Notes under the pieces: generated by a model
What the model saw: only the letters and a program-made list of their open reading frames with translations
Databases searched by the model: none
What the model was told of the DNA's origin: nothing
Shown: positions 42-33,010 of the stretch, piece by piece
Layout of the letters: each line of letters begins with the position of its first letter
How positions within the stretch are numbered: the stretch's first letter is position 1
Virus record (IMG/VR): IMGVR_UViG_3300048835_000303
Location: 1 to 49,304 of that record
Length of the DNA: 49,304 nt
Source: a virus
Strand: one strand, 5' to 3'
Translations under genes and position numbers: made by a program

Positions 42-126
42 GCCCGGGTGGCGAAATTGGTAGACGCAAGGGACTTAAAATCCCTCAGGGCAACCTATGC
101 GGGTTCGAGTCCCGCCCCGGGCACCA
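42..126 (+). tRNA. trnL: tRNA-Leu (anticodon UAA)
   Basis: The 7-bp acceptor stem GCCCGGG (42-48) pairs with CCCGGGC (116-122), followed by discriminator A and an encoded CCA. The anticodon loop CTTAAAA is closed by AGGGA/TCCCT and gives anticodon TAA. The long variable arm and the GGTTCGAGTCC T-arm fit a class II leucine tRNA. An integrase gene begins 125 bp downstream, so the 3' end of this gene is the likely attachment site of the element to its right. The tRNA remains complete. Confidence 0.96.
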
Positions 127-250: not shown

Positions 251-1312
251 ATGGCCAGCATCCGAAAGCTATCCGGGAACCGTTCCAAGGCTTACCGCGT
301 CGAGATCCGGCGCCAAGGTCGCGAGCCCATCGACAAGACCTTCCGCACCAAGAAAGAGGCCGAAGCGTTCGCGCGCGAAGTAGAGGCCGATTTCGACCAT
401 TGGTCGCGCCTGCTCGGCAAGGAGCTGACAAAACACACACTCGGCGACCTGCTGGACCGTTACGTCCTGGTCTGGACCGGCAAGGACCACAACACACCCG
501 TCCGGCTCGCCTGGTGGAAAGATCGGTACGGCGAAACCCCGCTATCCGCATTCAACGACGATACCGTCCGCGAGGCCCTGGCGTGCCTTGAGATCGAGCC
601 GCACGTGCGCGGGATGCGAACGGGCGCAACCCTGAACCGCTACAAAGCCGCGCTGTCGGCCGCCTTCAAGGCCGGGATCGATCGCGGATGGTACGGGCTC
701 AAGGTCAACCCAGCGGCCGGGATCCGCGGTCGGAAGGAATCCAGCCACCGTTTCGGCCGATCCCTTGAAGACGACGAGCGCGCCCGCCTGCTGGACGCCT
801 GCGACCGCTCAGCCTGGTCCGGGCTGGGTGTCTTCGTGCGCGTGGCACTCGCCACCGGAGCGCGCCGCGGGGAGCTGCTGAAGCTGGAATGGAAAGACGT
901 AGATCTGAAGTCCGGGTCGATCCTGCTGCGCGACACCAAGAACTCGGACGATCGGCGCGTTCCCTTGATCGGCGAGGCCAAGGCAAGACTCGAAGCCTGG
1001 TCCAAGGTCCGCAACCTGAAGGATCCGCGCGTCTTCCCCGGCTCGAAGCCAGAGAAGACGCCGCCGCTCGATTCGGCGTGGATATCCGCCAAGGCCGCGG
1101 GCGGGATCGAGAACCTCCGCATTCACGACCTGCGGCATTCGTGCGGGTCATACCTCGCCAAAGCCGGCGCGTCGTCGTTCCAGATCGCCGCGATACTGGG
1201 GCACAGATCCGGCCCCGGGTTGACCGCGCGATATGTGCACCTGGTTGCCGAGGATTCGCGCGCATTGATGGAAGACGCGATGGGAGGGCGACTCGGAGAC
1301 CCCTCGCGATGA
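251..1312 (+). CDS. int: Tyrosine recombinase / phage-type integrase
   Basis: 353 aa, the usual length for a tRNA-targeting integrase. The N-terminal ~55 residues look like an arm-binding domain, followed by a SAM-like core-binding domain (~60-160) and a catalytic domain. Visible catalytic residues are R205 in the TGARRGE motif, H292-x-x-R295 in HDLRH, H318 in LGH and the nucleophile Y328. All are present, so the enzyme should be active. It should integrate and excise the element at the adjacent tRNA-Leu. The stop overlaps the next start by ATGA, suggesting co-transcription with the following gene. Confidence 0.95.
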   Translation: MASIRKLSGNRSKAYRVEIRRQGREPIDKTFRTKKEAEAFAREVEADFDHWSRLLGKELTKHTLGDLLDRYVLVWTGKDHNTPVRLAWWKDRYGETPLSAFNDDTVREALACLEIEPHVRGMRTGATLNRYKAALSAAFKAGIDRGWYGLKVNPAAGIRGRKESSHRFGRSLEDDERARLLDACDRSAWSGLGVFVRVALATGARRGELLKLEWKDVDLKSGSILLRDTKNSDDRRVPLIGEAKARLEAWSKVRNLKDPRVFPGSKPEKTPPLDSAWISAKAAGGIENLRIHDLRHSCGSYLAKAGASSFQIAAILGHRSGPGLTARYVHLVAEDSRALMEDAMGGRLGDPSR

Positions 1313-5469: not shown

Positions 5470-5508
5470 ATGCAACACCATTTACAAGATGCTGAATCGG
5501 TTGACGAT

Positions 5509-6192
5509 ATGACAAACGCGCAGTCGGATCTGTCGAAACTGGGCGCAAAGTTAAGCCCTCCGCCCCTGCCTTTCGGCGAGGGCGAGGTAAGCGTCGTCCG
5601 CCTCCGGCCCGCCGATGTGGCGCGCCTTCTGGGGTGCTCCCGCGCACGTGTGAGCCAGCTTGTTAAGCAAGGCAAGATATCGGCGTTCGCCGACGGGTCG
5701 ATCGACCCGAGCAGATGCGCCGCGGAGCTGATCCGATCCGACCCCAAGGGCGCGCGATCGAAGATCCTGACCAGCATACGATCTGAACTCGACGAAGCCC
5801 AAGGCCAGGCGGTCGAGGCGTTGATGCTGCGCGATGCGATGGCCCGCGAGCGTGACCGCCTCGCCGCGGAGCTCGCCGACGTGCGCGAGGTTCTCCGGTC
5901 GATCGCGCACGCCTGGTTGACCGCCGAATATTGGTTGAACGCCTTGGACGCCACCACCCGCGCCCGAGCCGCCACTGCTGCGCAGACTGCGACAGACCTT
6001 GAAGCCGCGTTCGACCAGGCGGGCGCCGCCGCCCTCGCCGCCGCTCTCCCGGAACTCTTGGCGGGTGGCCCCGACCCGGACCTGATTGCGTCGCTTGCGG
6101 CGGTCGACCCGGCCGGCCCTTGGCTGTCCCCACGTGGGGGCATGCCGCGCTGCGCGGGTCCTTCTGAAGCCCCACCCGACGCGGGTAATTAG
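5509..6192 (+). CDS. Nu1/terminase-small-subunit-like HTH protein
   Basis: 227 aa from ATG 5509; an alternative ATG at 5470 adds 13 residues but overlaps a palindrome. The segment around RPADVARLLGCSRARVSQL (about residues 31-49) is a MerR/Nu1-type winged helix-turn-helix, followed by KQGKISAFADGSID, the wing. A long helical region, probably coiled coil, follows to about residue 185. Nu1-type proteins bind cos/pac DNA for packaging, and satellites often carry their own small terminase to divert helper capsids. A plain DNA-binding regulator is the alternative. Confidence 0.6.
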   Translation: MTNAQSDLSKLGAKLSPPPLPFGEGEVSVVRLRPADVARLLGCSRARVSQLVKQGKISAFADGSIDPSRCAAELIRSDPKGARSKILTSIRSELDEAQGQAVEALMLRDAMARERDRLAAELADVREVLRSIAHAWLTAEYWLNALDATTRARAATAAQTATDLEAAFDQAGAAALAAALPELLAGGPDPDLIASLAAVDPAGPWLSPRGGMPRCAGPSEAPPDAGN

Positions 6193-6268: not shown

Positions 6269-6766
6269 ATGAGCGAAGTCGACGTGTTTGAACAGGTGAA
6301 GGTTAAAACTCACGTGAGTTCCGATCCGATCGCCGACCTTCTCCTCCTCGCCGCCAAGCTGGAGGCCGCGGGGGCCGAACCAGGGAGCCCCGAGCATCGG
6401 TTCGTCGTCGGGATGCGCGCCTACGTTGCTGGCGTGAGCGCGACCCTGGAGGGGGCGCTCGACCTGGTTGGAGCCCGGGGCATCAGCGACGCGCGCCGCC
6501 GCCACCACATGGCCCGCCGCGCGGAGGATCTCGCCGCCGCGCTGCGCCTGATGCCAGGGGCGAGCGACTGGCAGCGCGCCAAGGCCCTTGCTGCGGAGGT
6601 CTCACGATTCGAGGGCCAAGTGTGGCCGCGCTGGCGAGGCATGGAGGCTCCGCCCGCAAACGCCTCCGACGTGCGCGTCCTGCTGTTCCGTGCGCGCAAA
6701 TCCGGGCCGCTTCCCGCAACCGCCCCCGGGCTGCGCAAGGCCGCCGCCCGCGCGCAAACTGGCTGA
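6269..6766 (+). CDS. Hypothetical helical protein
   Basis: 165 aa, preceded by AGGAG seven bases before the ATG. Predicted mostly alpha-helical, rich in Ala, Arg and Leu, with no motif I recognise. It lies between the Nu1-like gene and the capsid protease and may belong with the packaging or morphogenesis functions. Confidence 0.7.
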   Translation: MSEVDVFEQVKVKTHVSSDPIADLLLLAAKLEAAGAEPGSPEHRFVVGMRAYVAGVSATLEGALDLVGARGISDARRRHHMARRAEDLAAALRLMPGASDWQRAKALAAEVSRFEGQVWPRWRGMEAPPANASDVRVLLFRARKSGPLPATAPGLRKAAARAQTG

Positions 6767-6830
6767 CGGGTTTTCGGTTTGCGCCGCTCGGTCGATGATG
6801 AACGCACTCCCGAACGAGGCAACTCAAGAC

Positions 6831-7961
6831 ATGTTCGACCTATCGACAGCGACACCCTGGGCCTGCGATGCAGGCGCCTTCCGAGACATCGCCGAGGCGG
6901 CGGACAACGCCATGCGCGCAACCGGCATCGACGCCATCGAGGCCGCGCTGCGCCCCGTCACCCGGCCCCCGGTTGCGCCGCGCGCGGCCGCGTCCGGCAC
7001 GGCCGTGATCCGCGTCCTCGGCCCCATCGCCCGGCGCAAATCGTGGGTTACGGAGCTGCTGGGTTGGACGCATCATGACGGCATCCGAGACCAGCTTGCG
7101 ACCGCGAACGCGGATCCCGCGGTATCACGAATCGTATTCGAGGTCGACTCGCCTGGTGGAGTCGTCTCGGGCGTCTCCGACACGGCCGACCTGATCCGCC
7201 GCTCCGCCAAGCCGACCGTGGCTTTCATCGACGGCATGGCCGCCTCCGCCGCCTATTGGCTCGCCTCCGCCGCCGACACCATCGTGACCAGCAAAAGCGC
7301 GACGCTCGGCTCCATTGGCATCGTGGCGACGTGGCGCAGCGATCCGAACCGGCCCATCACCATCATCTCCTCGCAGAGTCCCATGAAAAACGCCGACCCA
7401 TCGACCCGCGACGGCCGCGCAGAACATCAACGCGTGGTTGACGATCTCGCCGCCATCTTCGTCAGTGACGTGGCGCGATACCGCGGCAAGACCCCGCAGC
7501 AAGTCATCGACACGTTCGGCCGCGGCGGCCTGCTGGTCGGGGCAAGCGCCGCCGCCGCCGGGATGGCGGATCAGGTCGGCAGCTTCGCCGACGCCCTGAG
7601 CGCCGCGCCGACGCTCCGCGCCGGCACCGCCGCGAAACCGATGCAGAGCCCGGCCGCGCGGATGAATGCCACGATCGAGGACCTCGTGCAGGGCGGCATG
7701 GACCGCCCGCTCGCGGTCCTGCAGGCCGCGCGGGATAACCCCGATCTGGTCGCGCAGCTCGCCCCCAAGGCGCCGCCGCGCGAGGATCCGCGCGTCCTGG
7801 AACGCTACGAGGCCGCGCTCGCCCGCCTGGTCGCCGCCGGCACGCCCGCCGCCGTGGCGCCGCTGACGCTCGCCAGAACCGAACCCGACTTAGCCGCAGC
7901 CGGCGCCCGCGCGGCCCGCGAGGCGGCCGACAACGTAAAAGGGATCATCCATGGCTACTAA
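6831..7961 (+). CDS. S49-family peptidase (phage capsid protease, lambda C/SppA-like)
   Basis: 376 aa from ATG 6831; earlier in-frame ATGs at 6795 and 6798 are possible. Diagnostic motifs are FEVDSPGG (103-110), the nucleophile region MAASAAYW with S139, and LGSIGIVATW (159-168), all typical of the SppA/lambda-gpC group. In tailed phages this ClpP-fold protease cleaves scaffold and portal during prohead maturation. The C-terminal third could be a built-in scaffold or adaptor. No portal or capsid gene is found in this element, so it may act on a helper phage's proheads or have another role. Confidence 0.88.
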   Translation: MFDLSTATPWACDAGAFRDIAEAADNAMRATGIDAIEAALRPVTRPPVAPRAAASGTAVIRVLGPIARRKSWVTELLGWTHHDGIRDQLATANADPAVSRIVFEVDSPGGVVSGVSDTADLIRRSAKPTVAFIDGMAASAAYWLASAADTIVTSKSATLGSIGIVATWRSDPNRPITIISSQSPMKNADPSTRDGRAEHQRVVDDLAAIFVSDVARYRGKTPQQVIDTFGRGGLLVGASAAAAGMADQVGSFADALSAAPTLRAGTAAKPMQSPAARMNATIEDLVQGGMDRPLAVLQAARDNPDLVAQLAPKAPPREDPRVLERYEAALARLVAAGTPAAVAPLTLARTEPDLAAAGARAAREAADNVKGIIHGY

Positions 7962-8565
7962 AGCATCCCCCCTCTTCGGGCCGCTCAACGCCCTCCGCGC
8001 CGCGCTGTCGACGGCGACCCGCGACTACAACGCCGCGCTGGCGGAACTTGAGAGACTCAAACGCGAGCGCGATGAGATCGCCCAAGCGCCTTGTGCCCGC
8101 GCCGATCTGATCGCGGAATTGGAGCGATGGACCGACAGGATTGCCGCCGAGTACGAAGATGCGTTGGACAACCGCCTTATGCTGTTCGCGGAAGTCGGCC
8201 CAGACCGCCTCGCGCGCGAGCTCGACCCCTCGGGATTCTCATCTCTGCGCGACCTCTTCAGCTTGGTCCGAACCAACCGAGGGAGCATCGATGACCTCAA
8301 AGACCAGCGCACCGCGAGCGGCGGCGCGCTGGTCTACCTGGCCGGCCCCGACCGCGTTAAGGCCCTGCTGCGCGCGCGCGTGGAGGCCCTGGACTTCAAG
8401 GACGGTCTGCCCGCCGCCGCACGCCGCGCCCGCATTGCGGAGCTGAACGCGCAAATCCAGGCCGTAGAGGACGAGCTCGAAAGCATGCGCGAGGCCCTGC
8501 GCGCCTCCGGGCTCGCGGTTCCTGCCCCCACACCCGCCCCGAGGCCGCTGACGCCTCGCATCTGA
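7951..8565 (+). CDS. Coiled-coil hypothetical protein
   Basis: 204 aa, overlapping the protease gene end by 11 bases. Residues ~15-60 and ~150-190 are heptad-like Leu/Ala/Glu/Arg segments expected to form coiled coils. A decoration or scaffold role would suit its place after the protease, but there is no sequence proof. The C-terminus is a Pro-rich tail. Confidence 0.7.
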   Translation: MATKASPLFGPLNALRAALSTATRDYNAALAELERLKRERDEIAQAPCARADLIAELERWTDRIAAEYEDALDNRLMLFAEVGPDRLARELDPSGFSSLRDLFSLVRTNRGSIDDLKDQRTASGGALVYLAGPDRVKALLRARVEALDFKDGLPAAARRARIAELNAQIQAVEDELESMREALRASGLAVPAPTPAPRPLTPRI

Positions 8566-8693
8566 CCTTTGGCGCCCGCGTGGCTGGTCACCCGCGGGAA
8601 CAACCGCCCGCCGTGGGGCGTTAAATCGGCTTCGCGCCGGCCGAAGAACGGCAAAGCCGGCAACCCCTTCCCCGTCGCCCTGGAGCGCCTCGC

Positions 8694-9047
8694 TTGACCA
8701 CACTCAGAATTCCGCCGATCCGAGACGGCGCCGACCGCACGATCCCGGCGAGTGCCGAAATCGTCCTGATGCGAAAGCCCCGGGCGTCTACCGAAGCGTG
8801 GCGCGAGATCATCGTTTTCCGCAATGACGACGGGAGCCTCCTGCAGGAGCATACCGTTCGCGCTGTACCGCCCGATGGGCTGCTGATTCCGCTTGTCCCC
8901 CAAGACCAGATCAAGACCGGCGAGCCCGGGGAGGAGACCGCGTACAGCGTCACCGTCCGTTGGGCGCACGGCTCGGAGCGCTATCGCGTGGAGATCCCGG
9001 AAAGCGCCGACGTGCTCGACCTCGCCGACGTTGCAAGCGCGTGGTGA
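8694..9047 (+). CDS. Hypothetical beta-rich protein
   Basis: 117 aa starting at TTG 8694, supported by GGAGCG about seven bases upstream; the frame is closed upstream by TAA and no ATG or GTG fits. The alternation of hydrophobic and charged residues (EIVLMRK, EIIVFRN, YSVTVRW, YRVEIPE) predicts a small beta-sandwich. Possibly a structural or decoration protein, family unknown. Confidence 0.65.
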   Translation: MTTLRIPPIRDGADRTIPASAEIVLMRKPRASTEAWREIIVFRNDDGSLLQEHTVRAVPPDGLLIPLVPQDQIKTGEPGEETAYSVTVRWAHGSERYRVEIPESADVLDLADVASAW

Positions 9048-9056
9048 CATGCTCGG

Positions 9057-9093
9057 CTTGCCCCAAAACGGAAGACTTCCGTTTTGGGACAAG
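9057..9093. repeat. 37-bp palindrome, copy 1
   Basis: 18-base arms separated by one A, form CTTG-N4-AAAACGGAAG. One mismatched pair at the fifth base. It directly follows the stop at 9047, so it could also terminate that transcript. Confidence 0.85.
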
Positions 9094-9134
9094 GTTGGTC
9101 TGCGGATCTGCATCAACAATAACGCCTTGAATTT

Positions 9135-9162
9135 GTTGATAATCCAAAGTTGGATTAACAAC
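9135..9162. repeat. 28-bp palindrome with unrelated core
   Basis: 13-base arms (GTTGATAATCCAA and its complement with one mismatch) and a 2-base loop. It is A+T-rich compared with its surroundings and does not share the AAAACGGAAG core. Confidence 0.75.
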
Positions 9163-9255
9163 CCTCCGGCCAGCGCCGACCGCGAAGCCGCCGCCGATGG
9201 ATCGAGGCGCACCCCTACCACGCCCACACGACAAGCAACCGTCTCGAACCGCCTT

Positions 9256-9286
9256 GGGGAAAAACGAAAGCCTTTCGTTTTTCCCC
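9256..9286. repeat. 31-bp palindrome, variant copy 2
   Basis: Perfect 15-base arms GGGGAAAAACGAAAG with a single C loop. The core differs from the other copies by a G-to-A change that is matched by a C-to-T change in the opposite arm. Confidence 0.85.
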
Positions 9287-9292
9287 GCCGCC

Positions 9293-9329
9293 CTTGATCA
9301 AAAACGGAAGACTTCCGTTTTTGATCAAG
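9293..9329. repeat. 37-bp palindrome, copy 3
   Basis: Perfect 18-base arms CTTGATCAAAAACGGAAG, single A loop. Only 6 bases separate it from copy 2. Confidence 0.88.
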
Positions 9330-9431
9330 ACAACCCGCCGGCACCTGACCACGAAGCAGCGCGCGGTGATTGCTGCGGAGCTGGCGACGATGACCAAAGC
9401 GCAAGCAGGCGCAAAAGGTGGTCGGTCAGGC

Positions 9432-9457
9432 AAGCAAGGGCAAAATTGCCCTTGCTT
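9432..9457. repeat. 26-bp palindrome
   Basis: Perfect 12-base arms AAGCAAGGGCAA with loop AA. Shares the interval but not the AAAACGGAAG core. Confidence 0.8.
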
Positions 9458-9500
9458 AGACGACGCACTCAGCATCGACCAAGCAACCGTCTCGAATCGC

Positions 9501-9537
9501 CTTGGGCAAAAACGGAAGTCTTCCGTTTTTGCCCAAG
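9501..9537. repeat. 37-bp palindrome, copy 5
   Basis: Perfect 18-base arms CTTGGGCAAAAACGGAAG, single T loop. Lies at the same place in the repeat unit as copies 2 and 3. Confidence 0.88.
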
Positions 9538-9611
9538 ACAACCCGCCGCTTGTCGGATCTTTTTTGCACCGGACCCTTGCGCGCCGCGCGTGCGAGGTCT
9601 ACGCTTGCCAC

Positions 9612-9785
9612 ATGTCCGAAGTAACGAAGCAACCCAAAAGCAACCCCAGCCGACAGGCTGCGCACCGGGACCGCATGCGCGCGTCAGGTCTGGTGCCGAT
9701 CACCGAATGGATCCCGCCCGAATCCAAAGAGCTGGTGCGCAATCTTTGCAGGCGATTGAGGGAGACGAAGAAGACGACGAAGTAG
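9612..9785 (+). CDS. Small protein resembling MazE-like DUF3018 antitoxins
   Basis: 57 aa from ATG 9612. The pattern RQAAHRDRMRASGLVPITEW resembles the conserved start of DUF3018 (MazE-like antitoxin; typical form AHRxRLRxxGLRPVxxWVP). No toxin gene follows, so it may be an orphan or a DNA-binding protein of the ribbon-helix-helix type. No strong ribosome site is seen. Confidence 0.5.
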   Translation: MSEVTKQPKSNPSRQAAHRDRMRASGLVPITEWIPPESKELVRNLCRRLRETKKTTK

Positions 9786-9863
9786 CAGTAGAAGCGGACC
9801 CCGACCCGGTTGCACCCGGATCGAGGCCCTGACCACCACCCAACCTGTAACGGAGGTTCGGCA

Positions 9864-10049
9864 ATGGCTACCCGCCATGATACCAACACGCGCGCCCGTC
9901 GTTTCGAGCGCGTCATCCGCCGCGCGATCGGCACCGGCAACCCCACCACCTTGCGCGCTGTCGCATGCCTTGCGCATGACGATGGGCACGCCCCGGTGCA
10001 GGTCCGCGCCGAGGCCGCGCTGCGCTTCGTGGGGGGTCGCCATGTGTGA
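9864..10049 (+). CDS. Small hypothetical protein
   Basis: 61 aa from ATG 9864 with CGGAGG eight bases upstream. Basic and helical. The next gene starts inside its end, so the two are likely coupled. Unknown family. Confidence 0.6.
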   Translation: MATRHDTNTRARRFERVIRRAIGTGNPTTLRAVACLAHDDGHAPVQVRAEAALRFVGGRHV

Positions 10050-10239
10050 CCCGACCCAAGCGCCGCTGTTCGTCTGGTCCTATGCCTTGCTCAAGCAACT
10101 GCCGAGCATGTACTCGATCGCGAGCAACTACGGCGGCATCGACTTGACCGAGGACGACGAGATCCGTGAAGCCGTTCGCGCCGCGGTCGAGCCGATCCTG
10201 CGTCGGCGTATCCAGGCCGCACGGGAGGCGCAGTCATGA
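10042..10239 (+). CDS. Small hypothetical protein
   Basis: 65 aa from ATG 10042, overlapping its neighbour by 8 bases. Hydrophobic first third, then an acidic segment and a basic amphipathic helix. Unknown function. Confidence 0.55.
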   Translation: MCDPTQAPLFVWSYALLKQLPSMYSIASNYGGIDLTEDDEIREAVRAAVEPILRRRIQAAREAQS

Positions 10240-10295
10240 GCGACGACATCCGCAAAGAGAATGAGCTCGATAACCTCGAGGAGCAGACAGCGTGA
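10236..10295 (+). CDS. 19-residue micro-ORF
   Basis: ATG 10236 overlaps the previous stop by ATGA and its own stop overlaps the GTG start at 10292. The acidic peptide (MSDDIRKENELDNLEEQTA) exactly fills the gap between two coupled genes, so it may serve as a translational relay. Too short to be certain. Confidence 0.4.
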   Translation: MSDDIRKENELDNLEEQTA

Positions 10296-10648
10296 CCGAC
10301 ACCACTCCAAACCCGTCAACCTGCACCGGCATGTCCGAGCTGTTCAACCTCGCATGGAGCTTGTCGGGTATTACCCGAACGCTCGACATGGAGGGAGGGG
10401 AGCCCGCCGAGTCGGCGAGCGACCGTGACCGCATTCATGGGCTGACCTGCGCCGCCCACCTGCTGTCGACCCGCCTGCTGGAGCTTGTCCTTGACTTCAG
10501 CCCGGCCCTGACCCGCCGGCACGACGAAGCCCTTGCGCGGATCGGCACGCAGACCGGGGAGAGGCCCGCGGAGGTCGCCGCACGCCTGCTGTGCGAGGCC
10601 CTGGAGGCGGACATCGCGCGGCACGAAGCCGAGCAGGCCGCGGCATAG
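10292..10648 (+). CDS. Hypothetical helical protein
   Basis: 118 aa from GTG 10292. Alpha-helical throughout, with two conserved-looking Cys (in the segment HGLTCAAHLL and LLCEALEAD). Unknown family. Position within the run of small genes suggests an accessory function. Confidence 0.6.
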   Translation: MTDTTPNPSTCTGMSELFNLAWSLSGITRTLDMEGGEPAESASDRDRIHGLTCAAHLLSTRLLELVLDFSPALTRRHDEALARIGTQTGERPAEVAARLLCEALEADIARHEAEQAAA

Positions 10649-10695
10649 ACCCAACCGCCCGGATCCGTCCGGGCGCAACAATGAGGGACCGAGAC

Positions 10696-10917
10696 ATGAT
10701 CGCCGTCATCCTGCAACTCGCCGCTATCGCGCTCGGTCTCTGGATCGGGGCCGCCACCGAATCATGGTGGGTCGGTCTGGGGTCCGTCGCGTTCCTGTGG
10801 CTGCTCGCACTGCTCGCCATCGGCACCGTGCGCGTCATTGTCGGGCCGCACACTGCCGAGGCAAGACGATTCGGGGAGATCCGCAGCACCGGAAACGATC
10901 AAGAGGGCAAAGACTGA
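10696..10917 (+). CDS. Small membrane protein with two transmembrane segments
   Basis: 73 aa from ATG 10696 (GAGGGA upstream; ATG 10681 also possible). Two hydrophobic segments, IAVILQLAAIALGLWIGA and WWVGLGSVAFLWLLALLAIG, separated by a short turn, followed by a charged tail. The topology suits a small holin-like or inner-membrane accessory protein. No family recognised. Confidence 0.6.
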   Translation: MIAVILQLAAIALGLWIGAATESWWVGLGSVAFLWLLALLAIGTVRVIVGPHTAEARRFGEIRSTGNDQEGKD

Positions 10918-10968
10918 AGACGGCCGCCGAGTCCGGCCCGCCGCTCGACACCCGATCAGGAGGGAGCG

Positions 10969-11077
10969 ATGTCCATCGACAACACCACGAAGCGCCGAAC
11001 GTGTGGCAAGAAACGCACGGTTCCGGTCAATCGACCGGAACCGTGTCCATCGACAACACCACGATCTTCTGTGGTGG
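10969..11077 (+). pseudogene. 5' fragment of a gene cut by the Mu-like insertion
   Basis: ATG 10969 follows an excellent AGGAGGGAG site, and the frame runs as MSIDNTTKRRTCGKKRT up to the proposed phage left end. Beyond it the frame continues only into phage end sequence. A second copy of its first codons, starting GTG, lies at 11043. I infer a gene of element 1 interrupted by the phage. Confidence 0.45.
10971..11064 (+). repeat. Two direct 20-bp repeats flanking a hairpin
   Basis: TCCATCGACAACACCACGA and its preceding base occur at 10971-10990 and 11045-11064. Between them is a 12-bp-stem hairpin ACGGTTCCGGTC/GACCGGAACCGT (11017-11044, 4-base loop). Both copies follow a potential start codon (ATG or GTG). 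Confidence 0.7.
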
Positions 11078-11094
11078 TGTTAGCCGCAACCTGC

Positions 11095-11268
11095 TTTGAG
11101 ATTACGGGACTAACAGGGATGTGGCGGTATAAAGCGGCCAAAGTATTGTTTTGTTTCTGGAATCGCGGTGGATGCGGGCTCGTTTTCGGGAAATGGGCGC
11201 GCAGGGTGATTTGAGACAAAACAAGGCAAAAACGACCGTTTAAGCGAAAAGCGCAAATCGGTTTGAGA
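11095..11268 (+). promoter_or_regulatory. Three candidate MuA end-binding sites (L1-L3)
   Basis: TTTGAGA occurs at 11095-11101, 11210-11216 and 11262-11268, always followed by a pyrimidine. Offsets of 115 and 167 bp resemble Mu L1-L2-L3 (about 105 and 145 bp). They sit between the TG terminus and the end of the repressor gene, as in Mu. Confidence 0.55.
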
Positions 11269-11272
11269 CGGC

Positions 11273-11854
11273 CTAAAGGAGCTTCCGCGCAAGGCGGGCG
11301 AGCTGGTCGAGGTCGTCTTGGTCGAGTCTGGCTTGGTGGTCCTGGTCACGGGCCATGGTCGCCAGAGCGTAACGCATGCGCATGGCGATGTCGGCCTTGA
11401 CGGGCTCGGCGAGCTGCTCCTCGAGGCGATCCACGGCCCTGACGACGCCGAAGAATATCCGCACGTCTTCTTCTTCTATTGTACCGCTATCCTCCTGCGC
11501 GTGCGCTCCATGCCTCGCAGCTGCGGGGCGGGCGCCTGCCAGCCCCGCCTTCCGTCGCCCCTCGCCGGTCGCAAGCCAGTCCAGCGACACTTGCGCCTCG
11601 CGCGCCAGCCCGGCCAGCGCCTTGAATGGCGCCGCCACATCTCCGCGCACATACCGCTGCAGAGTTGACACTGACACGCCTGCGGCATGTGCTGCAAGAG
11701 CCTGACTCCCGATCTCATCTATTGCCGCAGAAATGCGCGCACCAACGCCTACGCTCCACGCGTCATTTTCTGTCTTCTGAATCTGACGCTGATTTTCAGC
11801 CTCTCTTGGCGCGTCACTTTCCTGCTTTCTCTCTGTTTTTTCTTCGTTTTTCAC
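11273..11854 (-). CDS. Phage repressor, XRE-type HTH (Mu c analogue)
   Basis: 193 aa on the minus strand, starting GTG at 11854 with AAGGAGA eight bases upstream. Residues ~33-80 form an XRE-like helix-turn-helix (GARISAAIDEIGSQALAAHA, then GVSVSTLQRYVRGD) followed by a LARE/WLATGEG region typical of CI-type regulators. The C-terminal part is helical and acidic; there is no S24 LexA-like peptidase domain, so RecA-driven self-cleavage is unlikely. As the only leftward gene at the left end, divergent from ner, it fits the lysogeny repressor position of Mu-like phages. Confidence 0.85.
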   Translation of the reverse strand: MKNEEKTERKQESDAPREAENQRQIQKTENDAWSVGVGARISAAIDEIGSQALAAHAAGVSVSTLQRYVRGDVAAPFKALAGLAREAQVSLDWLATGEGRRKAGLAGARPAAARHGAHAQEDSGTIEEEDVRIFFGVVRAVDRLEEQLAEPVKADIAMRMRYALATMARDQDHQARLDQDDLDQLARLARKLL

Positions 11855-13334: not shown

Positions 13335-15452
13335 TTGGCCGGGTTGCCCGCCATGCCTGCCACGCCAAGCGCGGTTATCCGCGCTGCCAAGCGCAACGGC
13401 TGGAAGTCGCGCAAGCGCGAGTCGGGCAAGGGCCTCGAATACGCCTTCGCCAGCCTCCCCGTCGAGACCCAAAACGCACTGATCGCTCGGGACTTCGCGG
13501 CCAAGCCGCTTGCCGAGCCGGCGGAGACGGCCCTCGCGGTCATCCCCGAGACGCAGACGCTGCCGGCGGTGCGCGAGCCGCGTGCCGTGAAGACCAACGC
13601 CGAGCTGAAAGGCTGGCAGCGCGAGATCCGCGACGCCCGCGCCTTGGTGCTCGCCCTGGTCGACGACCTGACTCACTCGCTTGGGACGACCCGCAAGGCG
13701 GCGGAGCGGGTCGAGGCGATGGCCAAAAGCGGCACGCTCTCGCCGATCCACGCCGAAGCGGTAGTGCGTGCCAACGCCCGCAACGGCGGGGCGCGCACGG
13801 TCTCGGCGGCGACCTTGTATCGGTGGCTGCAACTGCGGGCCATCAGCGTGCATGCGCTGGCCCCGGATGCCGGCCCGGAGCGCGACCAGCCGGCGTGGAT
13901 TCCGTACTTCCTGGAGCTCTACCAGGACCCGGCGAAGCCCTCGATCGCGGCCTGTCTGCGGCGCTTGCGTCGGGAGCCGCCGCCGGGCGTGGAGCTGCCG
14001 TCGGAGCGGTCCGCGTCGAGCTGGATCAACGACCGGCTGCCCAAATCGATCACGCAATACGGGCGGATGGGGACGCGGGCGCGTCGGGCGATTCGGCCCT
14101 TCACCCGCCGCACCACCGACGGGCTGTGGCCCATGGACATCGTCGCGGTCGACGGGCACGCCTTCAAGGGGTACGTGGCCCACCCGGCGTCCGGAAAGCG
14201 CATCCATCCGGAGGTGACGACCTACGTCGACATCGCCACGCGGCGGATCGTCGGCTTCTCGGTCTGGGTGAGCGAGAGCGCCTATGCGATCTGGCTGGCG
14301 CTGCGGCAGATGGTGCTCAACCCGGATGTCGGGATCCCGGCGATGCACTACAGCGACAACGGCGCCTACAAGGGCGAGCAGCATCGGTTTTTGCTGGATC
14401 GGCTCGGGATCACGCAGGAGTTCAGCCGGCCCGGCAACCCGCAGGCCAACGGCGTGATCGAGCGCATCAATCGCACCCTGTGGCTGCCGTTGGCGAAGCA
14501 GCTCCCGCTCTACAGCGGCAAGGACATGGATAAGGAGGCATTCAAGCGCCGCAAGGATCGCGCGGACAAGACCGGCGCCGGGCTGGTGGGTTACGCGGAC
14601 TTCGTGGCCGGGTGCGCCGAGGCCGTGGCCGAGTACAACGCCCGCGAGCATTCCAGTCTGCGCCGCGGACGCGAGCGCCTGAGCCCGAACGCCGCCTGGG
14701 CGCGTGCCGTCGAGGAGGGGTGGCAGCCTACGACGCTGGACAGCGACGACCTGCACGACCTGCTGCCGTCCGAGGTCCGCACCTGCCTGCGCTGCGAGGT
14801 CGCGCTGCCATGGGGGAGGTACTTCAGCCTCGCGCTGGAGCCGTACGAGGGCCAGCGGGTGCATGTCGGCTACGAGCCGTCGGACAACGCGCGGGCCTGG
14901 ATCAGCGATCAGGATGGCCGGCTGATCTGCGTGGCGGAGCTGGGTGCGAATCAGCGGGCCTATCAGCCGACGACCGCGATCGAGAAGGCCCGCGAAAACC
15001 GCGGGACGCAGAAGGTCAAGCGCCTGGAGCGCCGGATCGAGCGGGCCAGGGCGGAAGAGACCTCGGTGATCGAGGGGCAGGTGCTGGAAGGCGAGGCATC
15101 GGACCTGCCCTATCTCGGCTTCTCGGCGGAGCCGTCGCTGACACCAGCACTGACGGCGATCCCCTCGACGGCGCTGGATCCGTCCGCCGTCTCGGCGCAG
15201 CCGGAGCCGGCCCGCGTCGCCGCGGAGCTGCCCAAGGCGCGCCCGGTGCGCAGCTACATCGACGAGCTCGACAACGACGCGAGCCGCTACGAGGTGCTCA
15301 AGACCTTGCGCGTGCGGATGGCGGCCGGCGACGCGCTCACCGAGCGCGAGCGGCAATTCTTCACGGCGTTCGGCACCAGCGAGTACGTGCGGATCACGGA
15401 GAAATTACAGGCGGATTGGGACGCGCGATGGGCGCAGACCGCCGCCGGATAA
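13335..15452 (+). CDS. Mu-type DDE transposase (MuA)
   Basis: 705 aa from TTG 13335. The N-terminal Mu DNA-binding domain (GLPAMP...GWKSRKR...EYAFASLP) is followed by end-binding HTH regions and the catalytic core. The acidic triad is readable as D273 (VAVDGHAF), D341 (HYSDNGAY) and E376 (GVIERINRT), a D-35-E spacing. The C-terminal region contains the beta-barrel and a tail expected to contact MuB and ClpX. It should catalyse integration and replicative transposition. The upstream ATG 13309 is one base out of frame: adding a base near 13325 would give MRSWTPASELAGLPAMP, the expected MuA start. The N-terminus is therefore either shortened or frameshifted. Confidence 0.93.
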   Translation: MAGLPAMPATPSAVIRAAKRNGWKSRKRESGKGLEYAFASLPVETQNALIARDFAAKPLAEPAETALAVIPETQTLPAVREPRAVKTNAELKGWQREIRDARALVLALVDDLTHSLGTTRKAAERVEAMAKSGTLSPIHAEAVVRANARNGGARTVSAATLYRWLQLRAISVHALAPDAGPERDQPAWIPYFLELYQDPAKPSIAACLRRLRREPPPGVELPSERSASSWINDRLPKSITQYGRMGTRARRAIRPFTRRTTDGLWPMDIVAVDGHAFKGYVAHPASGKRIHPEVTTYVDIATRRIVGFSVWVSESAYAIWLALRQMVLNPDVGIPAMHYSDNGAYKGEQHRFLLDRLGITQEFSRPGNPQANGVIERINRTLWLPLAKQLPLYSGKDMDKEAFKRRKDRADKTGAGLVGYADFVAGCAEAVAEYNAREHSSLRRGRERLSPNAAWARAVEEGWQPTTLDSDDLHDLLPSEVRTCLRCEVALPWGRYFSLALEPYEGQRVHVGYEPSDNARAWISDQDGRLICVAELGANQRAYQPTTAIEKARENRGTQKVKRLERRIERARAEETSVIEGQVLEGEASDLPYLGFSAEPSLTPALTAIPSTALDPSAVSAQPEPARVAAELPKARPVRSYIDELDNDASRYEVLKTLRVRMAAGDALTERERQFFTAFGTSEYVRITEKLQADWDARWAQTAAG

Positions 15453-15535: not shown

Positions 15536-16291
15536 ATGAATGATCGATCGACACCTGTCACGGGGGGCGGGTCCCCGACCGTGGCGCCGCTCACCAACGT
15601 GGGGCTGACGCTGGGTGCGCTGGACCGCGCCAAGGCGCGCTCCGCCGGGCTGCCCGGCATCGTGGTCCTGCACGGCCCGAGCGGCTGGGGCAAGAGCACG
15701 GCGGCAGCCTATGCCGCAGCCCAAACGCGGGCCTACTACGTGGCCATGCAGTCGGTGTGGACGCGTCGGGCCTTCCTCGAGGCCGTCGCGCGGGAGATGG
15801 GCCTGGCCGTGACCGGGACCATCAGCACCATGGCCGGGCAGGTCGCCGAGCAGTTGGTCCTCTCGGGTCGCCCACTCCTTATAGATGAGGCGGACGTCCT
15901 GGCCGAGCGCGACGGCGGCGCGGGCGTCATCAAGGACATCTACGAGAGCACGCTCGGGACCATCCTGCTGATCGGCGAGGAGCGTCTGCCCCAGAAGCTC
16001 GCTCGGTACGAGCGCCTGCACGGGCGGGTGCTCGAATGGGTCGGGGCGATGCCGGCGAGCCTGGCGGATGCCCGCGCGCTCACGCGCATCTACTGCCCCG
16101 GGGTCGAGGTGGCCGACGACCTGCTCGCGGAGCTGGTGAAGCGGGCCAAGGGCTCGGTGCGGCGCATCGCGGTCAACCTGGACCGGGTCCGCAGCGAGGG
16201 CGCGAAGATGGGCTGGACGCAGGCCGACCTGGGGCTGTGGGGCGAACGGGCGATCTACACCGGCGAGCCGCCGGCGCGGAGGGTCGGGTGA
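15536..16291 (+). CDS. MuB-like target-selection ATPase
   Basis: 251 aa. Walker A GPSGWGKST (47-55) and Walker B PLLIDEAD (113-120) lie in an AAA+ fold, with a helical C-terminal domain ending in a winged region. In Mu, the B protein binds target DNA in an ATP-dependent manner, delivers it to MuA and gives target immunity. The gene follows A by 83 bp, the standard order. The stop overlaps the next start (TGATG). Confidence 0.92.
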   Translation: MNDRSTPVTGGGSPTVAPLTNVGLTLGALDRAKARSAGLPGIVVLHGPSGWGKSTAAAYAAAQTRAYYVAMQSVWTRRAFLEAVAREMGLAVTGTISTMAGQVAEQLVLSGRPLLIDEADVLAERDGGAGVIKDIYESTLGTILLIGEERLPQKLARYERLHGRVLEWVGAMPASLADARALTRIYCPGVEVADDLLAELVKRAKGSVRRIAVNLDRVRSEGAKMGWTQADLGLWGERAIYTGEPPARRVG

Positions 16292-26831: not shown

Positions 26832-26861
26832 CCGGGGCTTCAACGGCTGTTGAAGCCCCGG
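26832..26861 (+). terminator. Perfect 13-bp-stem hairpin
   Basis: CCGGGGCTTCAAC (26832-26844) pairs with GTTGAAGCCCCGG (26849-26861) around GGCT. There is no T-tract. It isolates the upstream operon from the next gene, as expected for a moron border. Confidence 0.7.
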
Positions 26862-31212: not shown

Positions 31213-31469
31213 GCGGCTGGGCCTATTACGCGGTCGGCATGTGCCAGCATGATCGCTCGTGTCACGGTGCCCGCTTTGTGTCGTCGCGCGCGACGGTCGC
31301 TACACGCGAATTCTCGACCGTCGAGGCGCTGGATGTTGAGTTGGCGGCCCTTGCCGCCGATCCGCGTCGGCGTCGCTGCGGGTGCTGCAATCGGCCGATC
31401 GCCGTGAAGCGTTTCCAGCGCCGCCGGTGGAATGCGCAGACCGAGACGGTCGAGGTCCTGGATCAATGA
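31209..31469 (+). CDS. Small zinc-knuckle protein
   Basis: 86 aa from GTG 31209, overlapping both neighbours. Has CQHDRSCHG and a C-terminal CGCCNRPI cluster, enough for one zinc site. It lies between the small and large terminase genes. Unknown function; may assist packaging. Confidence 0.6.
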   Translation: MSGWAYYAVGMCQHDRSCHGARFVSSRATVATREFSTVEALDVELAALAADPRRRRCGCCNRPIAVKRFQRRRWNAQTETVEVLDQ

Positions 31470-33010
31470 CCACCGCCATCCTCCTCCCCTACCAGCAGCG
31501 CTGGAGCAAAGATCCGGCCCAAGTGAAGCTCTGGGAGAAATCCCGCCGCATCGGCGCGAGCTACGGCGAGGCGGCGGACGACGTACTGCACGCCGCGGCG
31601 AGTACGGGCGGCGGGAACGTCTATTACATCTCCTACAACAAGGACATGACCAGCACGTTTGTCGATGACTGCGCGGGCTGGGCCAAGCGGTTTAATAGCG
31701 CGCTCGGCTCGATCGGCGAAAGCGTCTTCAAGCGCGACGACGACCGGGATATTCACGTCTTCGATATCGAATTCGCGAGCGGCCACCATATCCGCACCTT
31801 CTCGAATAACCCCCGCAACCTACGCAGTAAAGGCCGCCCCGGCGATCGCGTCGTCATCGACGAGGCCGCTTTCGTCGACGATCTGGAGGAGCTGCTCAAG
31901 GCCGCCATGGCGGTCACGATGTGGGGCGGCGAGGTGCGGATCATGTCGACCCACAACGGGGACGATAATCCGTTCAATACCCTCATTGCCGACATCCGCG
32001 CCGGGAAGTTCGATTACTCCATTCACCGGGTCACCCTGGACGATGCGATCGCCGACGGGCTGTATCGGCGCATCTGTCAGGTCACCGGCAAGCCCTGGTC
32101 CGCCGAGAGCGAGGCGGAATGGCGGGCGCAGTTGGTGCGCCGCTATCGCCCCAACGAGGACGAGGAGCTGTTCTGCATCCCGGCCATGGGCGGCGGGTCC
32201 TATCTACCGCGCGCCCTGATCGAGCGCTGCATGCCGCGGGCGGAAGACTCCGCGCCGCTGGTGCGCTTCAACGGCAACGCCGCCTTCAACGCCATGCCCC
32301 CGCACATGCGCGCGGCCGATATGGCGGATTGGATCCGCGAGCACCTGGACCCGGTCCTCGCCGCCCTGGACGGCGCGCGCCGGCATGTCGCCGGGATGGA
32401 CTTCGCGCGCTCCGGGGATATGACCAGCATCGTCCTGCTCGAGATCGGCGCGGATCTGCGCCGCACCTGGCGGGGCCTGATCGAGATGCACAACACCCCT
32501 TTCAGCGAACAAAAACAGGTGTTGCACCACGCGTTGAGGCGTCTTCCGCGCTTCTCCGGCGCGGCCCTGGACGCGCGCGGCAACGGCCAGCAGCTCGCCG
32601 AGGAGACGGTCGACGTGTTCGGCGCCAGCCTGATCCAGGCCGTGATGCCGACCGAAGCCTTCTACCGCGAGAGCTTCCCCAAATACAAGGCCGGCCTCGA
32701 GGACCGCACCACCATCCTGATCCGGCACGACGACGTGCTGGAAGACCATCGGGCGGTGAAGATCGTGCGCGGCGTGCCGCGGGTGCCCGAGGGCAAGACC
32801 GACGGCAAGGGCCAGCGCCACGGGGATTCCGCGATTGCCGGCCTGCTCGCCGACGTGGCCGCCAGCGCCGACCCGCCGGACCTCAACACGGTCGCCTCCG
32901 CCGGCGAGCGCGAGCCCGGCCGCCTCGGGCTCGACCCCGCGGAGCCGTCGCTCTCCGCGGTCGGCTTCGGCGCGGTCTCCAACGGCATGGCGGAGTACAG
33001 CTATGAGTAA
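31466..33010 (+). CDS. terL: Terminase large subunit (Mu gp28-like)
   Basis: 514 aa from ATG 31466. The ATPase part shows a Walker-A-like KSRRIGAS (25-32) and a Walker-B-type VVIDEAAF (129-136). The C-terminal nuclease region has GMDFARSGDMTS with its metal-binding Asp, and a later GDSAIAGLLA. It cuts and pumps phage DNA into the prohead at the portal. Downstream, the portal start overlaps its stop, the usual Mu order. Confidence 0.94.
   Translation: MTTAILLPYQQRWSKDPAQVKLWEKSRRIGASYGEAADDVLHAAASTGGGNVYYISYNKDMTSTFVDDCAGWAKRFNSALGSIGESVFKRDDDRDIHVFDIEFASGHHIRTFSNNPRNLRSKGRPGDRVVIDEAAFVDDLEELLKAAMAVTMWGGEVRIMSTHNGDDNPFNTLIADIRAGKFDYSIHRVTLDDAIADGLYRRICQVTGKPWSAESEAEWRAQLVRRYRPNEDEELFCIPAMGGGSYLPRALIERCMPRAEDSAPLVRFNGNAAFNAMPPHMRAADMADWIREHLDPVLAALDGARRHVAGMDFARSGDMTSIVLLEIGADLRRTWRGLIEMHNTPFSEQKQVLHHALRRLPRFSGAALDARGNGQQLAEETVDVFGASLIQAVMPTEAFYRESFPKYKAGLEDRTTILIRHDDVLEDHRAVKIVRGVPRVPEGKTDGKGQRHGDSAIAGLLADVAASADPPDLNTVASAGEREPGRLGLDPAEPSLSAVGFGAVSNGMAEYSYE

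Follow-up and report, generated by a model that had tools for sequence, protein, structure and literature searches.

Introduction

Integron attC sites carry the box consensus RYYYAAC and GTTRRRY at their two ends, and they keep their fold with varying sequence at repeated junctions. Intrinsic terminators, including the bidirectional ones, consist of an A-run, a stem and a T-run, and are recognized by a stable G+C-rich hairpin directly before the T-run. REP elements are palindromes of 20-40 bp that occur in several copies and share a constant tetranucleotide at the foot; they carry an unpaired GTAG or CGTC tag at one end (PMC3733652). Template-switch mutation leaves hairpins with perfect arms, clustered mirrored changes and unrelated palindromes side by side. 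Such mutation was reported to create and maintain perfect stems and to produce multi-base compensatory changes; the mechanism was described for RNA genes, and earlier microbial work is cited therein (PMC8794818).

In the present study, we analyzed a palindrome array in a viral DNA stretch of 49,304 nucleotides, hereafter the window, which is an IMG/VR virus record. The array resembles REP elements in palindrome length, copy number and the constant tetranucleotide at the foot; however, it forms one local cluster without the unpaired tag, a RAYT or dispersed copies in the sequences searched. As in attC sites, the fold is kept at repeated junctions while the sequence varies, although the array lacks R''/R' boxes and the window lacks an integron integrase. 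It also shares the A-run, stem and T-run of intrinsic terminators, and its first palindrome comes after a stop codon, whereas its inner stem is weak and the T-run is buried within a longer stem. The hairpins left by template switching are matched in perfect arms, clustered mirrored changes and unrelated neighboring palindromes; the array differs from them in having no ancestor to show an event. On present evidence, the array appears to be local rather than part of a known repeat family, and it is unusual in its locality.

Results and discussion

Genomic context of the array

The cluster is inside a phage- or satellite-like element integrated beside a tRNA-Leu gene (Table 1). The element carries a tyrosine integrase followed by primase-like ORFs, and a head maturation protease of the S49 type. 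A Mu-like phage begins at about 11.1 kb, a left end that is an estimate, and runs off the right edge of the window; it may have inserted into the tRNA-Leu element. A search for a repeat of the 3' part of the tRNA found none in the window, which leaves the right end of the tRNA-Leu element out of view. As a side observation, the record appears to hold two elements, the tRNA-Leu-integrated phage or satellite with the head protease and the Mu-like phage, and neither right end falls within positions 1-49304.

Table 1. Positions of the palindromes, their flanks and the neighboring genes in the window
Feature	Position	Strand	Description
tRNA-Leu (taa)	42-126	+	Element integrated beside it
Tyrosine integrase of the element	251-1312	+	
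Terminase-small-subunit-like protein	5470-6192		
S49-type head maturation protease of the element	6588-7961	+	Start codon uncertain
pal1	9057-9093	.	37 bp, CTTG-CCCC-AAAACGGAAG-A-CTTCCGTTTT-GGGA-CAAG, one C.A mismatch
palX	9135-9162	.	13-bp arms, one mismatch, unrelated sequence
Left flank of pal2, CAAGCAACCGTCTCGAACCGC	9232-9252	+	Repeated with one change at 9480-9500
pal2	9256-9286	.	31 bp, core AAAACGAAAG-C-CTTTCGTTTT, compensated G/A and C/T
pal3	9293-9329	.	37 bp, perfect, N4 = ATCA
Right flank of pal3, ACAACCCGCCGGC	9330-9342	+	ACAACCCGCCG also at 9538-9548, after pal4
ParB-like protein fragment (RRHLTTKQRAVIAAELATM...SIDQA)	9330-9500	+	Open frame between pal3 and pal4
palY	9432-9457	.	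26 bp, perfect, 13-bp arms, unrelated sequence
Left flank of pal4, second copy	9480-9500	+	Directly before pal4
pal4	9501-9537	.	37 bp, perfect, N4 = GGCA
Small ORF, 57 aa, MazE-like (PF11455)	9612-9785	+	Weaker matches: KorA, plasmid repression protein F
Mu-like repressor	11273-11854		
Mu-like transposase	13335-15452		
Mu-like transposition ATPase	15536-16291		
Mu-like large terminase	31382-33010		

Palindromes and two-arm changes

The palindromes and their clustering in about 500 bases are real, exceptional and not a product of chance. Palindromes were counted with arms of at least 13, at most one mismatch and a loop of at most 3 (0-3). Six were found in 9041-9600, spanning 9057-9539, whereas 200 dinucleotide shuffles of these 560 bases gave 0.005 on average and never more than 1. 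The whole window contains 10 such palindromes, compared with 0-2 in each of 20 shuffles. The four related palindromes (pal1-pal4; 37, 31, 37 and 37 bp) lie where a preliminary description of this DNA had placed them and have the N4 segments that it listed (CCCC, GGGA, ATCA and GGCA); its two further palindromes with other cores in the same 500 bp correspond to palX and palY. The first palindrome, pal1, starts 10 bases past the stop codon of ORF 8694-9047, and the end of palX overlaps ACAACCCTCCGGC (9158-9170). Six palindromes in 500 bp, two of them unrelated in sequence, point to a local palindrome-making process rather than to one sequence spreading.

CTTG-N4-AAAACGRAAG is common to pal1-pal4. 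Three copies carry an unchanged 21-bp dyad, AAAACGGAAG-N-CTTCCGTTTT, which is repeated four times if pal2 is counted; within the core, an A-run precedes and a T-run follows the inner stem. Among pal1, pal3 and pal4, only the center and three arm columns (5, 6 and 8) vary, and the variation is mirrored in the opposite arm save for column 5 of pal1. The preliminary description had given the four a common CTTG-N4 palindrome form with N4 matched in the opposite arm, which needs two corrections. The CTTG is paired with CAAG in three of the four, whereas the CTTG of pal2 (9253-9256) has no closing CAAG, so this palindrome reaches only 31 bp; N4 is generally mirrored, but in pal1 three of the four positions pair and the outermost is C.A. 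The core change of G to A matched by C to T, also described earlier, was located in pal2 (column 15 with column 23).

When the four 37-mers were compared, 5 of the 17 stem pairs had changed in both arms. Column shuffles reached this number 0 times in 500 on the plus strand and 3 times in 500 on the minus strand, counts that do not amount to a probability because only four sequences, probably related by duplication, were compared. It had been concluded that structure is conserved here and not sequence. The pairing is indeed kept as the sequence changes; however, conservation in the sense of selection does not follow because template-switch mutations make or mend perfect hairpins and generate multi-base compensatory changes.

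The source of the window, an IMG/VR virus record, raises the possibility that metagenomic assembly produced the array artificially. Identical arms extending into the flanks would be expected from a collapsed inverted read, whereas the copies found here differ in sequence and center base and have ordinary flanks, and we give an artefact very little credence.

Repeated flanks and the ParB-like fragment

The left flank is shared by pal2 and pal4 (score 43; reached in 0 of 300 shuffles), and pal3 and pal4 have their right flank in common. To the right of palX, the flank (4/300 shuffles) and the body after it (5/300 shuffles) are similar to their counterparts at pal3; the similarity of the left flank of palX to the other left flanks was not significant (19/300 in both tests). 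The ParB-like fragment has neither a start nor a stop of its own and is cut off at palindromes on both sides, with palY in frame within its linker. Over 52 aligned positions, it is 46% identical to a plasmid protein from Azotobacter, whose own matches to ParB models are weak. With these shared flanks and a fragment lacking both start and end, the stretch therefore gives the impression of a gene piece that was duplicated in part and has palindromes where the parts join.

Our leading explanation, put forward tentatively and with less than even confidence, is that template switching made the palindromes and kept them symmetric, around a core that is a possible binding or hairpin site, in a partly duplicated stretch. 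The process would start in replication, when a single strand folds into a hairpin; the polymerase would then switch template inside it and rewrite one arm as the complement of the other. Such rewriting would make near-palindromes perfect and would turn one-arm mutations into apparently compensatory two-arm changes; template switching would also favor duplication beside hairpins. The constant part (CTTG, AAAACGGAAG and its mirror) probably serves, or once served, as a recognition or hairpin site, and N4 would be free to vary with its symmetry kept by the mutation process.

Template switching would fit the unrelated palindromes side by side, N4 segments that are mirrored yet vary, duplication at the joints, and a ParB-like fragment that ends at palindromes. 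The switching itself, the order of duplication and any binding function of the core are inferred. Additionally, relatives carrying the same unit were sought in viral_contigs and none was found, which agrees with this explanation. On the other side, a drifting palindrome without function should vary over the whole arm, yet CTTG and the core barely change, which suggests that part of the unit is, or was, recognized by something. The mismatch of pal1 stayed uncorrected, and the mismatches in the stems of pal1 and the extended pal4 form G-U pairs only on the minus strand. The sequences searched yielded neither an ancestral nor a sister sequence, so no template-switch event can be reconstructed. 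The matching arms may come from copying error as easily as from function. If template switching explains the symmetry, the array would preserve, on a small scale, a natural trace of that process in a mobile element of bacteria, and it would warn that covariation alone is no proof of a selected RNA structure.

RNA folding and terminators

Both strands of the stretch fold far better than their shuffles (z -9.0 for minus and -8.4 for plus). As minus-strand RNA, the pal4 stem reaches 25 pairs (9493-9545) through G-U pairing. Read on the minus strand, the mismatch in pal1 and all four non-Watson-Crick pairs in the outer part of the pal4 stem are G-U, where the plus strand has A.C; the extension of pal3 behaves in the same way (G-U on minus) but is homologous. 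This G-U pattern hints at a minus-strand RNA and at selection on RNA. Together with the two-arm changes and the A-run and T-run on either side of the inner stem, it is consistent with a functional array of hairpin RNAs, where the stretch would be transcribed, with the minus strand as the probable source, and selection would maintain the hairpins, which would act as RNase sites, stability elements, small-RNA precursors or weak bidirectional terminators.

We consider such an RNA array possible, though on the unlikely side. The strand bias is based on about five pairs, and a sigma-70-like promoter was sought in 8500-11400 and not found. No Rfam family reaches its gathering score. Furthermore, the inner stem ahead of the T-run amounts to -3.1 kcal/mol in pal1, pal3 and pal4 and to -0.7 in pal2, and the T-run itself is buried in the stem, which continues for several more pairs. 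None of the four palindromes was picked up by the terminator scan, in which the T-run is treated as part of the stem. If the hairpins are selected, the window would hold a hairpin array in an integrated phage-like element.

Ordinary terminators were the outcome that the preliminary description had set against its own interpretation, and the palindromes do not look like such. Their inner stems (-0.7 to -3.1 kcal/mol) are too weak, and a stable G+C-rich hairpin directly before the T-run is absent from pal1-pal4.

Searches for relatives

The exact 20-base core had no match in viral_contigs and one match in genome_contigs, in a Planctomycetota MAG. When the core pattern was searched with at most three mismatches, four matches were obtained in the window, all in the cluster (expected 0.01). 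A dispersed viral family was rejected as follows: the relaxed core recovered seven stretches in viral_contigs, none with a second long core palindrome; the left flank recovered 12 stretches that do not share the palindrome context; and the right flank recovered none. No protein relatives were found in viral_contigs for ORF 8694-9047, the primase-like ORF or the ParB-like fragment. The S49 protease had relatives there at seven loci (35-43% identity), which contain one long palindrome among them and no array. No DNA similarity was detected in phages and plasmids. We met no published description of this array or of the planctomycete palindromes reported below, which does not show that they are unpublished.

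These results bear on the REP-like family that had been proposed for this locus, with copies dispersed by a RAYT-type transposase. Short palindromes in several copies with a constant CTTG at the foot would suit it. Nevertheless, all the copies lie within 480 bp, with none elsewhere in the 49,304 bases, and the core is nearly absent from the collections (0 in viral_contigs and 1 in genome_contigs). The CTTG is paired with CAAG in three of the four copies and is not an unpaired tag of the GTAG/CGTC type. The Y1 transposase domain of RAYT type (Y1_Tnp, PF01797) is absent from the window, in a search that detects PF01797 in 5 of 14 control genomes. On the window and the collections covered, we judge a REP-like family to be highly improbable. 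The preliminary description had also proposed a replication or packaging structure or a source of small RNAs, either of which may apply.

A structure-recognized site for single-strand recombination, similar to integron attC, would imply units separated by sites that hold their fold despite variable arms. The repeated junctions with variable palindromes and the fold kept under sequence change are in line with this, but pairs of RYYYAAC/GTTRRRY boxes 40-140 bases apart number 0 in the whole window. The integrase of the element scores 33.8 bits against the integron integrase model TIGR02249, whose cut-off is 265, and the repeated unit contains a broken gene. As a result, an attC-like site is very unlikely.

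Palindromes upstream of planctomycete integrase-like genes

In the Planctomycetota MAG, the core match lies between a tRNA-Ala gene and a long ORF, which we take to be an integrase from its sequence. For relatives of this integrase-like ORF, 26 genomes of the family were searched and 13 had a match at E <= 1e-20, and the MAG itself gave 10 matches at E <= 1e-10. The 24 loci analyzed are those whose match begins within the first 10 query residues; rows with a later match start were dropped because the start codon could not be placed. As an observation apart from the array, a palindrome with arms of at least 9 occurs in the 75 bases before the start in 20 of these 24 related genes (18/22 and 2/2). 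The control rate was 28 of 377 75-mers taken further upstream at the same loci.

The planctomycete palindromes are variable in sequence and stand 10-35 bases ahead of the integrase start codon, usually after a tRNA gene; the distances are approximate, the start codon being counted back where the match begins after residue 1. ARAGORN found a tRNA in 16 of the 24 loci. ARAC..GTYT is present in 13 of the 20 palindromes. They are like the array in having the core AAAACGGAA..TTCCGTTTT or a similar one, with outer arms that vary and still pair in several cases. Unlike the array, they occur singly, one per locus, before an unrelated integrase. The window integrase is not a close relative of the planctomycete integrase (28% over 46 positions). 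Since the integrases are not close and the Mu-like transposase is matched in 0 of 246 planctomycete genomes, we read the likeness as convergent: a hairpin or operator form in which the core AAAACGGAA..TTCCGTTTT is combined with variable paired outer arms seems to have come up more than once. These loci provide a set where selection and template switching could be separated with a real phylogeny.

A planctomycete host was considered because the sole core match in genome_contigs lies there, and it was rejected. The threshold for the Mu-like transposase in the 246 genomes was E <= 1e-30, in a search run without a positive control; the core with at most one mismatch occurs in 1 of 294 genomes, the same MAG; and the integrases are barely similar.

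The position of the planctomycete palindromes before integrase starts, with the same or a similar core, would fit an operator. A dimeric regulator or a partition protein could bind the 21-bp dyad of the window in double-stranded form, so that the array would be one of operators or centromere sites. The constancy of the dyad in three copies, four repeats with pal2, and the adjoining ParB-like fragment and MazE/KorA-like small gene are consistent with this. However, binding of double-stranded DNA needs no complementary N4 arms, only part of the ParB-like gene is present, the MazE/KorA-like match of the 9612-9785 ORF is weak (25 and 17 bits), and the planctomycete integrase is distant from that of the window. 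Consequently, we hold an operator or centromere array to be unlikely.

A more speculative proposal, to which we attach a low probability, is that the array consists of sites read by their shape as single-stranded RNA or DNA. Recognition by one of the element's proteins or RNases would require CTTG and, at a fixed distance from it, the AAAACGGAAG hairpin; N4 would be a paired spacer drifting under pairing alone, and integrated elements of other phyla would use the same hairpin form before their integrase genes.

Other palindromes in the window

Two further palindromes were observed outside the array. A 30-bp perfect palindrome at 11016-11045 lies just left of the supposed left end of the Mu-like phage, and the region around it bears no resemblance to the array (83/300 shuffles). 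A 19-bp sequence is found on both sides of this palindrome, at 10972-10990 and directly after it at 11046-11064. The second one, also perfect and 30 bp long, is located at 26832-26861, soon past the end of an ORF of the Mu-like phage and without a T-run.
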